Assembly: GCF_000212395.1 (NCBI RefSeq)
Contig: NC_015499.1
Location: 1,375,421 to 1,439,420, forward strand
Origin: Thermodesulfobium narugense DSM 14796
GTDB lineage: Bacteria > Thermodesulfobiota > Thermodesulfobiia > Thermodesulfobiales > Thermodesulfobiaceae
Reading direction: 5' to 3'
Length of the DNA: 64,000 bases
Shown here in pieces: positions 54,210 to 60,525 of this stretch. The notes beneath the pieces were generated by a model. It was not told where the DNA came from. It did not search any database and saw nothing but the letters and a program-made list of their open reading frames with translations. Both the position numbers and the translations under genes were made by a program. Position 1 is the stretch's first letter; each line of letters starts with the position of its first letter.

Positions 54210-55121
54210 ATGAAGCGATTAGTGGTTTCAATTTTTCTAATACTATTTATCTTGATGTCAAAAAGCGCCTATGCAAACCAAGAGTTTTACGATCTGTTAA
54301 ACAACACATACACACGATACACAAATACTGAGTCTTCAATGATAGCCTACAAAGTTTTAGGCGAAAAAAATAAAAAGACCATCGTAATGTTGGAGCCTTT
54401 TTCAAGCAGCATGAACAGTTGGGATGATTCATTTGTAATGAATCTTTTGCAGAATTTCAGACTTATTTTTATAGATTATCCAGGTATCGGACAATCAAAA
54501 TTCCTTTCAAACAAAGATCCAGATATAGGCGAATTGGCACAAGCCGTAAAAAATGTCTTAAAGAATGAGAAGATAAAGAGTGCAAATATTCTTGGATATT
54601 CAATGGGAGGTTTTGTAGCTCAACAATTCGCACGGATGTACCCTGATATGGTAGATTCCCTTATATTAATAGGCACCGATGCAGGAGGATCTAGCGCTAT
54701 AAAACCTCAAGATTACGTAATAGATGCACTTTTCAACCCGTTGCCAGATTTAGAAAAGCAGGGTGAAAGAATTATGAAAGTACTTTTCCCAAAAGATGAA
54801 ATTGACAATTACAAAATTAAGATGGCACTCATTTATGAAAGATCTGCTCCTGATATTACCCCAAAAGTTTTTAACTATGAAAAACAGATAATATATAGAT
54901 GGTATCTAGATAATACCAATCAAAAGGAACTTGATGGCAAATATTTTAAAACCCTTATTCTCTCATCTGATCAAGACCTGGTAGTTCCACCCGAAAACGC
55001 ATTAATACTTCATAAGATTTTGCCAAATTCAAAATTAGTAATATTCAAAGGCGCAGGTCACGCGCTCATTTATCAAATGCCATCAGAAATATCACTAGCT
55101 ATTAGAAAATTTCTTGAGTAA
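54210..55121 (+). CDS. Exported alpha/beta hydrolase
   Basis: About 303 residues. A signal peptide (RLVVSIFLILFILMSKSAYA) is followed by an alpha/beta hydrolase fold: nucleophile elbow GYSMGG (Ser131), acid in SSDQDLVVP and histidine in GAGHALIY. Substrate unknown; esterase or lipase-like activity in the periplasm is likely. ATG at 54210 is chosen because GGAGG lies upstream; a TTG at 54198 contains it. It overlaps the convergent methyltransferase gene by 20 bases. Confidence 0.85.
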   Translation: MKRLVVSIFLILFILMSKSAYANQEFYDLLNNTYTRYTNTESSMIAYKVLGEKNKKTIVMLEPFSSSMNSWDDSFVMNLLQNFRLIFIDYPGIGQSKFLSNKDPDIGELAQAVKNVLKNEKIKSANILGYSMGGFVAQQFARMYPDMVDSLILIGTDAGGSSAIKPQDYVIDALFNPLPDLEKQGERIMKVLFPKDEIDNYKIKMALIYERSAPDITPKVFNYEKQIIYRWYLDNTNQKELDGKYFKTLILSSDQDLVVPPENALILHKILPNSKLVIFKGAGHALIYQMPSEISLAIRKFLE

Positions 55122-55698
55122 ACTTTTGCAGGTGAAGAATATAGCCTTCTTCATCATCCTTTGTATTTAGTATTGAAAATCCTTTGCTCTTTGCCGTCTC
55201 TTGTACTGTCTCAACGGGTAAAAGCACGTGATCTTTTACCTCTTCTTTTCTTGAATGAACCATATTTATATGTTCCCTTGAAGAGTTATGGAGTATTAAA
55301 ATTTCGCCTCTTCTGTCCAATAACTGTGAAGATTTTGTAAACAAGCTTTCCAAATCTCCCAAATGCGGCAAAACATTTATCATAAGGATAAGGTCAAAAA
55401 TGCCCTCCACTTCAAAAAAATTCTTTATATTAACTGTAAATCTTGCATCATGAATTCTTTCAATTGCCCTTCTAACCATCTTTGCAGATATGTCTATTGC
55501 AAACAACCTTGCAGTAGGTTTTAATCTCTTTAAAATATAGCCGGTTTCAATTCCTGTAGCACAACCAACTTCCAACACTCTTGTAAATAAATTCCAATCT
55601 ACAAGATCAAGTCCTCTCTCTAGAACATTTATATCTCCTCTTGAAAATATACTGTCCCACTCATCAGATAATCTATCAAAAAAATCTACCGTATCCAT
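55102..55698 (-). CDS. Class I SAM-dependent methyltransferase of the metal-uptake cluster
   Basis: A 198-residue methyltransferase with motif I VLEVGCATGIETG, the acidic post-I end FAIDIS, and ILMINVLPHLG. It is the last gene of the cooC-ABC cluster, 14 bases after the ATPase gene. Methyltransferases in such clusters sometimes make or modify metallophores or corrinoids, but the substrate cannot be read from the sequence. Confidence 0.8.
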   Translation of the reverse strand: MDTVDFFDRLSDEWDSIFSRGDINVLERGLDLVDWNLFTRVLEVGCATGIETGYILKRLKPTARLFAIDISAKMVRRAIERIHDARFTVNIKNFFEVEGIFDLILMINVLPHLGDLESLFTKSSQLLDRRGEILILHNSSREHINMVHSRKEEVKDHVLLPVETVQETAKSKGFSILNTKDDEEGYILHLQKFTQEIF

Positions 55699-55712: not shown

Positions 55713-56459
55713 TTAAAATAGTAAAAATGGCCTTCCATCGATATTTTGAATTTTTACCTTAACCCCAAAAACTTTGTTAAAGTTTTCTTCGGTTATAATT
55801 TCTAAGCCTCCTGAGGAGAATATCTTTCCATCTTTCATCAAAATAAACTTGTCAATAAATCTAAGCGCAAGATTTATATCGTGAATAGCAACTAGACACG
55901 AGATTTTCTTCTCTTTTATAATTCGTTTTATAATGTTCATCACTTCGATCTGACTCTTTATGTCAAGATTATTCGTTGGCTCATCCATAAGAATTAGTAT
56001 AGGCTCTTGAACCAATGCTCTTGCAACTATCACCTTTTGAAGCTCTCCGCCGCTTAATTCGTCAACAAATCTCATAGAAATTTCGTGGAGTGAAAGCATT
56101 TCTATAACCTTTTTTGTAATTTCAAGATCTTTATCTGATATCCCCCAGCTAACATACGGTTTCCTTCCTAGTAGTATTGCATCAAAGACTGTAAGTCTAG
56201 TAGCTTGATTCTGTTGGGAAACATAAGAAATCTTTTTGGCAACATCTGCACCTAATTCTTCTATATACTGTCCCTCAATCAATATTGTCCCTAATTTTGG
56301 TTTAAGAATTCTATTAATACACTTTATCAAAGTAGACTTGCCTACGCCATTGTTTCCAAGTATAGCAATAAGATCACCCTTTTCTATGTGAAAGCTTATA
56401 TCTTTTAACACATCAACGCTATTATAAGAAAATCTTATATCTCTGATCTGGATAAACAT
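55713..56459 (-). CDS. FecE/BtuD-type ABC transporter ATPase
   Basis: A 248-residue ATPase of the iron-siderophore/cobalamin uptake group: Walker A GNNGVGKST, signature LSGGELQKV, Walker B ILMDEPTNNLD and HDINLAL. It powers the FecCD-type permease, whose gene it overlaps by one base. The cargo is a metal complex or corrinoid. Confidence 0.92.
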   Translation of the reverse strand: MFIQIRDIRFSYNSVDVLKDISFHIEKGDLIAILGNNGVGKSTLIKCINRILKPKLGTILIEGQYIEELGADVAKKISYVSQQNQATRLTVFDAILLGRKPYVSWGISDKDLEITKKVIEMLSLHEISMRFVDELSGGELQKVIVARALVQEPILILMDEPTNNLDIKSQIEVMNIIKRIIKEKKISCLVAIHDINLALRFIDKFILMKDGKIFSSGGLEIITEENFNKVFGVKVKIQNIDGRPFLLF

Positions 56460-57508
56460 TACTTGATTTTTCCTTTTAAATATAGAATATAAATAAAAAA
56501 TGGCGCTCCCAAAAAAGATGTAACAGCTCCTATAGGCAAGATAACAGGTGACAAAATTGTTCTGCTAACTATATCAGCTATTATTAGCAAAATTGCTCCC
56601 ATAAATGCGCTGGCTGGAAGGATAAACCTGTGATCAAAGTCTATCATTCTTCTCATTGCTTGAGGCGCTACCAATCCCACAAAACCTATTATTCCTAAAA
56701 ATGAAACTATCACTGCGGTTATAAGAGAAGAGACTATCATTGATACGAATCTTATTTTGTCAACATCGATACCCAAACCCTTAGCGCTCTCATCACCTAT
56801 TTGCATAGCATTATAGTTTAGACTGTTGAGTAAAAAATACACAAAAGATAATGCTATCACGATAGTCATTATCAAGATCTCGTTCCAGTATGCTCTACCT
56901 ACATCTCCAAATGTCCAAAACACCATACTGGTTACTGCAACTTCATTTGAAAAGTACTGAAGCATTATGATCATAGCAGAAAAGAGTGCTCCAAGGGCAA
57001 CGCCTGAAAGAACTATTGACTCAGGGCTAAAGCCTTTAAATTTTGAAAGAAATACTATAGTAAAGGTAGACAAAAGAGATCCAAAAAACGCACAAACTGT
57101 TACAAAATATGGATTATTAATAATAATATTCGTACCAAGAGAACCCTGTCCCAACAACACTATTCCTACACAAGCCCCAAACGCAGCTCCCTGAGAAACA
57201 CCAAGTGTAAATGGAGATGCAAGAGGATTTCTTAAAACGTTTTGCATCACGCAACCTGCTATTGCAAGACCAAATCCAGCCACAAAGGATGACGCTATTC
57301 TTGGAAGGCGTACATTAAACAAGATCGAAGCCTCTCTTGAATTTGGATTAAAAAACGACAAAATTATATCTGAAAAACTTAGATTAAATGTGCCAATTTT
57401 TGCAGAAAATATTATAAAAAACAAAGAAATAGAAAACAAAAATATTAGAATGAAAAATTTTTTCTTATAATAACTTTTGTAATTCTTTAGAATGTCCTTT
57501 TTATCCAT
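56459..57508 (-). CDS. FecCD-family ABC transporter permease
   Basis: A 349-residue membrane protein of about ten helices. The family blocks RLPRIASSFVAGFGLAIAG, VMQNVLRNPLASPFTLGVSQGAAFG, VLSGVALG and GFVGLVAPQAMRR are clear. It is the channel for a chelated metal or vitamin B12. It lies between the binding protein and ATPase genes. Confidence 0.93.
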   Translation of the reverse strand: MDKKDILKNYKSYYKKKFFILIFLFSISLFFIIFSAKIGTFNLSFSDIILSFFNPNSREASILFNVRLPRIASSFVAGFGLAIAGCVMQNVLRNPLASPFTLGVSQGAAFGACVGIVLLGQGSLGTNIIINNPYFVTVCAFFGSLLSTFTIVFLSKFKGFSPESIVLSGVALGALFSAMIIMLQYFSNEVAVTSMVFWTFGDVGRAYWNEILIMTIVIALSFVYFLLNSLNYNAMQIGDESAKGLGIDVDKIRFVSMIVSSLITAVIVSFLGIIGFVGLVAPQAMRRMIDFDHRFILPASAFMGAILLIIADIVSRTILSPVILPIGAVTSFLGAPFFIYILYLKGKIK

Positions 57509-57513
57509 ATAAT

Positions 57514-58602
57514 CTAAAAAACTATTCTTGTGAAACCAGGATAATTTTTCACAATCTCATTAAACATTGGTTTGTCCAAAAATTCTTTAAATATTTCATT
57601 TGCTTTTGTACTAATATTTATATCAGAAAATCTATCGGGATAAATAACCTTTCCAGCAAAGTAGCTGTCTATCAAAGCTATCTCTATATTTGTAGTATAG
57701 TAGTTGAAAGGTAGCTGCCCATAAACTTTGTTTTCCTTAAAAGCCTTTAACTCATCGTAAAAAGCCTTGTTCTTTCTATAATCTTCCTTTACCAGAGAGA
57801 GTCCTCCTTCATCAATGAAGATGATATCAGGGTTCAACTTTACCAGATATTCTTTGTCAAGCATCAGGCTGCCTGAATTCTTTATTTTATCTACAACATT
57901 TTTTGCGTTTATCAAAGTAAAGGGCAAATATCTAGCCTGAGTGCTTTCAATTCCGTGAACACCAGCCATACCAAGTGCCCCTACGTAAACGCTCGGTTTT
58001 TCATCTGGTGAAATATTTTTCGTTCTACTATCTAAGTCCTCTTCTATACTCTTTATATATAAGATTAGCTGATCTGCCCTATCAGATCTTCCTGAAACCT
58101 CACCAATAATTCTTAAAGAATTAAATATATCGTTCATATCAAAGCTAGCAAATTGGCCATAGCTAAGCAATATTACAGGTATGTTTGTCTTTGACTGAAT
58201 TGCATCAGCCTGATCCTTCGTTAGATATGCAGCAAATATAACATCTGGTTTAAGTGATATGATACTTTCAAGGTTTGGGCTTGGACGAGGACCGCCCTGG
58301 CCTATTCCTGGTAGACTTCTTAACTGTGGATACGCAAGAATATACGGCCTTGAAAAAGCATCCCATTCCCTTTCAGAATCCTCTACCCCTACTACCGAGT
58401 CTGCAAGTCTCATATAAGAGATAAGTCTTAGTGCGCCAGGCCCTATTGCTACGATTCTTTTTACAGGGATTTCTTTCAGGGTAACCTTCCTTCCAAGCGC
58501 ATCAGTCACGGTTAAACTATAATTACCCTTCTGAGCTACATTATCACAGCCCGAAATAAAGAACAATGTACATATGAAAAAAAATATTTTTAAAAATTTC
58601 AT
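57514..58602 (-). CDS. FecB/BtuF-type substrate-binding lipoprotein
   Basis: 362 residues with lipobox FISGC (Cys19), so anchored in the membrane on the outer face. The helical-backbone binding fold has the typical VTDALGRKVTLKEIPVKRIVA opening and LKPDVIFAAY. It delivers an iron, nickel or cobalt complex, or corrinoid, to the FecCD permease. It directly overlaps the CooC-like gene by one base, which is the main hint that the metal may be nickel. Confidence 0.9.
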   Translation of the reverse strand: MKFLKIFFFICTLFFISGCDNVAQKGNYSLTVTDALGRKVTLKEIPVKRIVAIGPGALRLISYMRLADSVVGVEDSEREWDAFSRPYILAYPQLRSLPGIGQGGPRPSPNLESIISLKPDVIFAAYLTKDQADAIQSKTNIPVILLSYGQFASFDMNDIFNSLRIIGEVSGRSDRADQLILYIKSIEEDLDSRTKNISPDEKPSVYVGALGMAGVHGIESTQARYLPFTLINAKNVVDKIKNSGSLMLDKEYLVKLNPDIIFIDEGGLSLVKEDYRKNKAFYDELKAFKENKVYGQLPFNYYTTNIEIALIDSYFAGKVIYPDRFSDINISTKANEIFKEFLDKPMFNEIVKNYPGFTRIVF

Positions 58603-59357
58603 TACAAGATTGAATTTATAAGATTTGAGTCTTCAATAGTCAACTTTTCTCCCTTGAGATTTGCCTTTGAGATCTCACTTCTAAAGGGTAAGAAGCCATC
58701 TACCTTTATTTTTCTTTTAAGAAGCAGTTCCTCGAGTTCTGATCTACTCTCATCATTGACCTTGTTTAATATTACTTTATATGGTTTGACATGCTTTCCT
58801 TCTGAAATTAACCCTATAGTTTTCTCGCAAAGCGAAATTGATTCAAAGGAAGGCTCTATCACAAGCCATACCAGGTCTATAGCCTCGTGCACACCTCTTC
58901 CAAAGTGCTCTATTCCAGCTTCAGTATCCACCAAAACATATTGACTATCTTTAACTTTTAACTTTTTTAAAAACTCTCTTGTTACAGCTCCCATTGGACA
59001 CGCACAACCCTCCATACCGTGTTCAATCTTGCCAGTTTGAATGAAACCTATATTATCCCTCCAGGAAGAAAAATTTTTCAGGTCTTCAAAAGTGAGTTCA
59101 GTTGTAAACATCGGAGTCTTTTCTTTTCCTTCAGATTTTAAAAAAGATAAAAGTGCTTTTTTTACTTCAGCTTTACCACCAAAATATCCCATTAGGGTCT
59201 TTTCAGAATCAATGCCAAGCATGTTAGAAAGACAAAGATTAGATTCGTCGGCATCAAGGACAAAAACCTCGCCTCTTTTTGAAAGAGTGTTAGCTGCAAT
59301 TGCTGTAAGAGTGCTCTTTCCACATCCACCTCTTCCACAAACCAAAATTTTTGGCAT
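58602..59357 (-). CDS. cooC: CooC/AcsF-like nickel-insertion ATPase
   Basis: A 251-residue MinD-superfamily ATPase with deviant P-loop GRGGCGKST (8-16), LDADESN and the paired cysteines Cys118-x-Cys120 (EGCACPMG). The C-x-C corresponds to the metal-binding motif at the CooC dimer interface of Carboxydothermus. Such proteins insert nickel into carbon monoxide dehydrogenase/acetyl-CoA synthase. No CODH gene is in the window. It is the first gene of the operon with the FecBCD-type transporter and follows a structured leader. Confidence 0.88.
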   Translation of the reverse strand: MPKILVCGRGGCGKSTLTAIAANTLSKRGEVFVLDADESNLCLSNMLGIDSEKTLMGYFGGKAEVKKALLSFLKSEGKEKTPMFTTELTFEDLKNFSSWRDNIGFIQTGKIEHGMEGCACPMGAVTREFLKKLKVKDSQYVLVDTEAGIEHFGRGVHEAIDLVWLVIEPSFESISLCEKTIGLISEGKHVKPYKVILNKVNDESRSELEELLLKRKIKVDGFLPFRSEISKANLKGEKLTIEDSNLINSIL

Positions 59358-59467
59358 ATTAAACCTCCCTAAATAAAATAAGCCACAAAGGCTATTAGTA
59401 CAATCTACTCAGCAAACAGCCTTCATGGCTCCCTAAAAGAGTTCAACTCTTTATTTTTTTTATTATA
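59358..59467 (-). promoter_or_regulatory. Promoter -10 and structured leader RNA of the cooC-ABC operon
   Basis: A perfect -10 TATAAT on the minus strand (59462-59467) would start a leader of about 95 bases. It contains a small hairpin (59436-59452) and a second long one: arms 59418-59430 and 59381-59393 form 13 continuous pairs on the minus-strand RNA (two are G-U; on the other strand these would be mismatches), with an apical AGUA/UACU helix. The stem is followed by UUAUUUUAUUU, like a terminator, then the GGGAGG and ATG of cooC. No known riboswitch could be matched. Confidence 0.6.
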
Positions 59468-60485: not shown

Positions 60486-60525
60486 TTGCAACGAATAACG
60501 CTCAATTGAGCGCTATTCGTTGCAA
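60486..60525. terminator. Long perfect hairpin between convergent genes
   Basis: Arms of 18 bases (60486-60503 and 60508-60525) with a 4-base AATT loop; the one mismatch (60498 against 60513) is a G-U pair on the minus strand. It lies between the stops of the dehydrogenase (60476) and the permease (60530). U tracts are weak on both sides, so it may act as an RNA 3' end stabiliser as much as a terminator. Confidence 0.75.

Follow-up and report, generated by a model that had tools for sequence, protein, structure and literature searches.

The window, a 64,000-nucleotide stretch of the Thermodesulfobium narugense genome, carries on its minus strand an operon that begins with a cooC-like gene, continues with components of a metal-chelate transporter and ends with a methyltransferase gene. 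Its leader holds two small hairpins, P1 and P2, and P2 doubles as the 5′ strand of a long predicted intrinsic terminator that abuts the cooC ribosome binding site. Read in the direction of transcription, the features are:

59462-59467, minus strand: predicted -10 box TATAAT, recognised by sequence
59436-59452, minus strand: P1 hairpin, AAAGAG-UUGAA-CUCUUU, with a loop ending in GAA; enriched over shuffled sequences and retained in two relatives
59418-59430, minus strand: P2 small hairpin, AGCC-AUGAA-GGCU, with core CCAUGAAGG, the alternative to the terminator; inner-pair covariation
59381-59431, minus strand: terminator hairpin, in which 59415-59431 (including P2) pairs with 59381-59396; sequence and fold
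59371-59380, minus strand: U tract of the terminator, UAUUUUAUUU, by sequence
59364-59370, minus strand: ribosome binding site of cooC, AGGGAGG, by sequence
58602-59357, minus strand: first gene, with its ATG at 59357, a CooC-like/MinD-like P-loop ATPase with a CAC motif (PF01656); the name CooC is given by likeness, no model having reached its cut-off
57514-58602, minus strand: periplasmic metal-chelate binding protein (Peripla_BP_2), Pfam match
56459-57508, minus strand: FecCD-type permease, Pfam match
55713-56459, minus strand: ABC ATPase of the FecE type, by Pfam match and likeness
55102-55698, minus strand: SAM methyltransferase at the end of the operon, Pfam match

The promoter has a weak -35 sequence, and transcription is expected from the sequence to start at about 59455, immediately ahead of P1. 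The gene upstream of the leader is divergent, so there is no minus-strand gene in need of termination, as the earlier note on this DNA had pointed out. That note had also described a U-rich tail followed by the cooC ribosome site and a second hairpin in front, which correspond to the U tract and AGGGAGG listed above and to P1. Its 13-bp helix is indeed present on the minus strand, but it extends to about 16-17 bp in the minimum-energy fold, where the small capping helix it mentioned has 4 bp. The folding energy of the leader is -32 kcal/mol, compared with -19.7 ± 2.8 kcal/mol for dinucleotide shuffles (z = -4.45; 0 of 200 as stable), and in stepwise folding P1 and P2 form first (-12 kcal/mol), with displacement by the terminator once its 3′ arm has been made (-31 kcal/mol). 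As in an attenuator, a stable hairpin and U tract precede the first gene and a competing fold is available. A simple terminator scan returns no match in this leader because it accepts loops of at most 8 nt. The tiny frame MKAVC, once considered a possible leader peptide, does exist, but the frames differ among copies (MKAVC, MKVT, MKALNPRKG, MKAKA and MKASCLHGLFF, each followed by a stop) and most have no ribosome site, while the sequence in many relatives is CACGAAGG, which contains no ATG; the leader peptide is therefore rejected.

The window genome (1.9 Mb) belongs to a small, isolated genus with three relatives among the compared genomes, in two of which the cooC leader is 80% identical. 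Four further units in the genus are preceded by this hairpin (AAGCCAUGAAGGC...GCYUUYRUGGCUU, then a U tract): exbB-exbD-tonB, a TonB-dependent receptor, an [FeFe] hydrogenase and cbiM of a nickel/cobalt ECF transporter. A first covariance model (R1) finds all five genus units at E < 1e-8, being built from those same copies, and its weak matches outside the genus are mostly ordinary terminators. Scanning 84,980 species genomes for a pattern of both arms and the U tract yields 47 stretches, mostly in Desulfobacterota, Clostridia and Thermodesulfovibrio, where random sequence would be expected to give fewer than one by estimate. A second model (R2) gives 2-10 matches at E ≤ 0.01 in each of 20 element-bearing genomes of other phyla, a few of them being one palindrome counted on both strands, and only four weak matches in 55 comparison genomes. 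The leader had been called an orphan; it belongs instead to a family present in the same genus and in other phyla, and the covariance search in relatives that the earlier note proposed finds the pairing conserved. The Rfam 15 scan detects no family at the element in the window and 20 relatives at the gathering cut-off and, in the window, nothing meaningful at E ≤ 10; the earlier note had recognised no NiCo or cobalamin riboswitch consensus. No earlier description is found in Rfam or in the open-access papers searched, and the element is apparently undescribed so far. A mobile repeat was rejected as an explanation, with copies at orthologous positions in several species and unrelated flanks, as was a trans-acting small RNA directed against the 5′ arm, for which a search allowing one mismatch in four genomes returned the elements themselves and unrelated matches, several of them intragenic. 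Tandem pairs of elements occur within a single leader region at L262 (422-622) and L147 (7701-7893).

The genes downstream of the element appear to share a nickel theme, with cobalt as a possible alternative. Among the 72 first downstream genes, Pfam assigns 16 to the TonB receptor plug, five each to DUF4198 and methyltransferases, four to FmdE, three each to family-5 solute-binding proteins, FecCD, CbiM and ExbB, and two each to DUF3842, TonB, ECF S component, Peripla_BP_2 and OprB. NikA-like proteins are also found, as is LarE (L172, named from sequence likeness only); against the nickel theme, a few elements precede genes without a known nickel link. SAM methyltransferases recur beside metal transporters under the element (also at L140, L252, L261, L263 and L273), and FmdE-like and TrmO-like genes recur likewise. 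The nickel reading is supported by the content of the NikR regulon that Rodionov and colleagues predicted in other delta-proteobacteria, which has the same targets: nikMQO/cbiM, nikK/nikL, outer-membrane uptake and iron-only hydrogenase (PMC545781). The element also predicts membership of a nickel regulon for DUF4198, DUF3842, FmdE-like and TrmO-like proteins and for the methyltransferases. A hairpin before larC-cbiM in a distant genome (G144, L083) was left out, since it lacks both P1 and an R2 match and its genome lacks CooT; it lies at about 1500-1575 and reads GGGAUC-ACGAA-GGUCCC, with a strand also able to form a terminator, a like plan with another stem.

The reading preferred here, at a probability of about 0.65, is transcription attenuation: the element would act in cis, as an RNA, on nickel-related genes, with a trans-acting factor holding P1 and P2. 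RNA polymerase would start just upstream, and the nascent RNA would fold into P1 and P2, with loops ending in GAA. If P2 were left unbound, its strand would pair with the downstream arm, and the long hairpin with its U tract would stop transcription before the gene. Were P1 and P2 instead gripped by this factor, in all likelihood a dimeric protein, the terminator could not form and the genes would be expressed. A shortage of nickel is the signal to be expected, with the system standing in for the missing NikR repressor; read-through under nickel scarcity is suggested because the targets are uptake genes. The element, defined by a consensus and a set of targets, would provide RNA-based nickel control in NikR-less sulfate reducers and clostridia, and it may be the route of nickel sensing in anaerobes lacking the usual nickel repressor.

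Conservation is concentrated in the two hairpins. Across 78 unique elements the 5′ strand is conserved as CCAYGAAGG, and P2 takes the form RCC-AYGAA-GGY, with its inner pair formed in 76 of 78 (51 G-C, 19 G-U, 6 A-U, 2 A-G and 0 A-C; permutation p ~1e-4 by a statistic that ignores the kinship of sequences). This covariation is not built into the model, since the model pairs those positions with the far arm. Of 82 elements, 48 have within the 110 nt upstream a hairpin whose stem has 5 bp or more and whose loop, of four or five nucleotides, ends in GAA; the corresponding numbers are 3.0 ± 1.8 in shuffled sequence and 0 on the opposite strand. Its loops include AGAA, AUGAA, UGAA, AAGAA, UUGAA and others, and none of the other loop triplets tested comes near the enrichment of GAA. 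The TonB receptor copy of the window genome shows a compensatory change in the P1 stem relative to its relatives. Counting against the attenuation reading, the exbB and cbiM copies of the genus show no P1, about 40% of all elements lack it, and where present it stands 1 to about 90 nt from P2. The earlier note had left a choice between an attenuator and a riboswitch platform; the attenuator is well supported by recurrence before nickel-related genes, conserved pairing and the U tract. A riboswitch, in which the leader would bind Ni2+, Co2+ or a corrinoid directly and without a protein, remains a slim prospect, though the foremost of the alternatives: gene context would suit it and the terminator could serve as its expression platform, but the conservation is limited to two tiny GAA-ending hairpins with no junction or other conserved core, the P1-P2 distance is not fixed, and no Rfam riboswitch matches. 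The NiCo (czcD) riboswitch is similarly a cis-acting RNA tied to nickel or cobalt; it controls efflux genes, whereas the element lies before uptake genes and lacks both an Rfam match and a multi-helix junction. To judge from its sequence, the conserved part looks more like a protein-binding site than an aptamer.

Slightly less probable still is that a metal-dependent repressor binds the AAGCCATGAAGGCTT palindrome as a DNA operator downstream of the promoter, leaving the hairpin as a by-product or an independent terminator. P2 is almost palindromic as DNA and lies near the promoter, as such an operator would. The outer helix with the downstream arm, however, comprises 773 Watson-Crick, 117 G-U, 2 A-C and 21 other cells, counts that are biased toward pairing by the choice of the best-pairing partner arm, with exchanges among A-U/G-C/C-G and between U-A and C-G. 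The excess of G-U over A-C on the transcribed strand recurs in the inner P2 pair, and tolerance of G-U with absence of A-C is a pattern predicted by an RNA and not by a DNA palindrome; the restriction of GAA-loop hairpins to the sense strand also argues against an operator. The arms lie anywhere between about 5 and 35 nt apart, and an operator for a dimer with fixed spacing was rejected because of this variation. NikR itself acts on DNA at GTGTTAC-N13/14-GTAACAC (PMC545781), a fixed inverted repeat of 27-30 bp that the variable arms of the element do not reproduce. The element is in contrast an RNA signal in genomes lacking the regulator: NikR (PF08753) is absent or marginal in 24 of 24 carriers (best E 1e-4), none of which has a clear copy.

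Closest to the attenuation reading in design is ANTAR antitermination (EutV, NasR, AmiR), in which a protein dimer binds a pair of hairpins and the second of these overlaps the terminator (PMC3369931). The element likewise has a pair of small hairpins whose loops are conserved, with the 5′ strand of the terminator forming the second, and here too they are probably read by a protein dimer. That it is an ANTAR target with unusual loops is nevertheless improbable, even though every genome of the genus encodes one ANTAR protein (the single one in the window genome, at G000:C1:953481-953636, minus strand, is a case in point). ANTAR loops have six nucleotides with A1 and G4, whereas those of the element have 4-5 nt ending in GAA (AYGAA in P2, NGAA or NNGAA in P1, with the register set by covariation); the linkers span 1 to about 90 nt against 5-12 in ANTAR targets, the element sits before nickel genes, and the ANTAR domain (PF03861) has no match in 10 of the 24 carriers, including the isolates represented by G193 and G194. 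Judged by sequence features, then, the element would work like a dual-hairpin attenuator yet falls outside both the ANTAR and the NikR systems. The type of factor proposed resembles CsrA/RsmE, a small dimeric beta protein that reads short hairpins in leaders. CsrA recognises A(N)GGA and acts mainly on translation.

For the trans-acting factor of the attenuation reading, CooT is a tentative candidate. CooT (PF10133) is encoded by 22 of 24 carriers and by 4 of 55 other genomes (Fisher p ~2e-13, for sets unmatched for nickel use), and shared nickel metabolism may be the cause of this association. The two carriers without CooT are both draft metagenome bins; four genomes have CooT without an R2 match, and a clear NikR is found in two CooT-bearing genomes without the element. 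Of 47 loci chosen only for carrying the element, 4 have CooT no more than about 1.5 kb away, against an estimated 0.14 expected; often it is paired with DUF3842 and both lie under the element (L171, L175/L254 and L179, in other phyla). A DUF3842-CooT pair also occurs in the window genome, there without an element (L312 1486-2126, minus strand; C1 at about 720.6-721.2 kb). CooT is a 7-kDa dimer that binds one nickel with a Kd of 9 nM via Cys2, and Rhodospirillum rubrum cooT mutants require extra nickel for growth on CO (PMC6006190). A search with the modelled CooT fold returned solved CooT structures and, as a weak match, RimM, but not CsrA; the predicted fold offers no direct link to RNA binding beyond the weak RimM likeness. 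The wider proposal, that a widespread RNA regulon replaces NikR in anaerobes and that CooT, with or without DUF3842, reads the two GAA-loop hairpins for antitermination of nickel-uptake genes, is equally speculative. If true, CooT would be a nickel sensor beyond its role as a CO dehydrogenase helper, and the element makes its function directly testable.

Chance likeness among ordinary terminators is the least probable explanation of all: a minority of pattern matches are intergenic like normal terminators (L137, L141, L151, L159 and L163) and the window genome has a comparable hairpin behind a tRNA gene, but the 12-nt core recurs before metal genes whose upstream neighbour is often divergent, the comparison genomes yield next to nothing, and P1 is enriched. 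The tRNA-associated hairpin (L101 1525-1583; also L108 and L111), AAGUC-ACGAA-GACUU with a U tract, lies between the tRNA gene and an SLH porin gene and is kept in three species; coming directly after the tRNA gene, it is probably the terminator of that gene and was treated as such. Near-identical transposase-like genes lie near this SLH porin gene (L101 200-1244, a shortened and split copy) and beside the hydA element (L105 9648-10901). A further long, near-perfect inverted repeat in the window, at 60487-60525 (GCAACGAATA.CGCTCAATTGAGCG.TATTCGTTGC), lies between convergent genes and is probably a two-way terminator.
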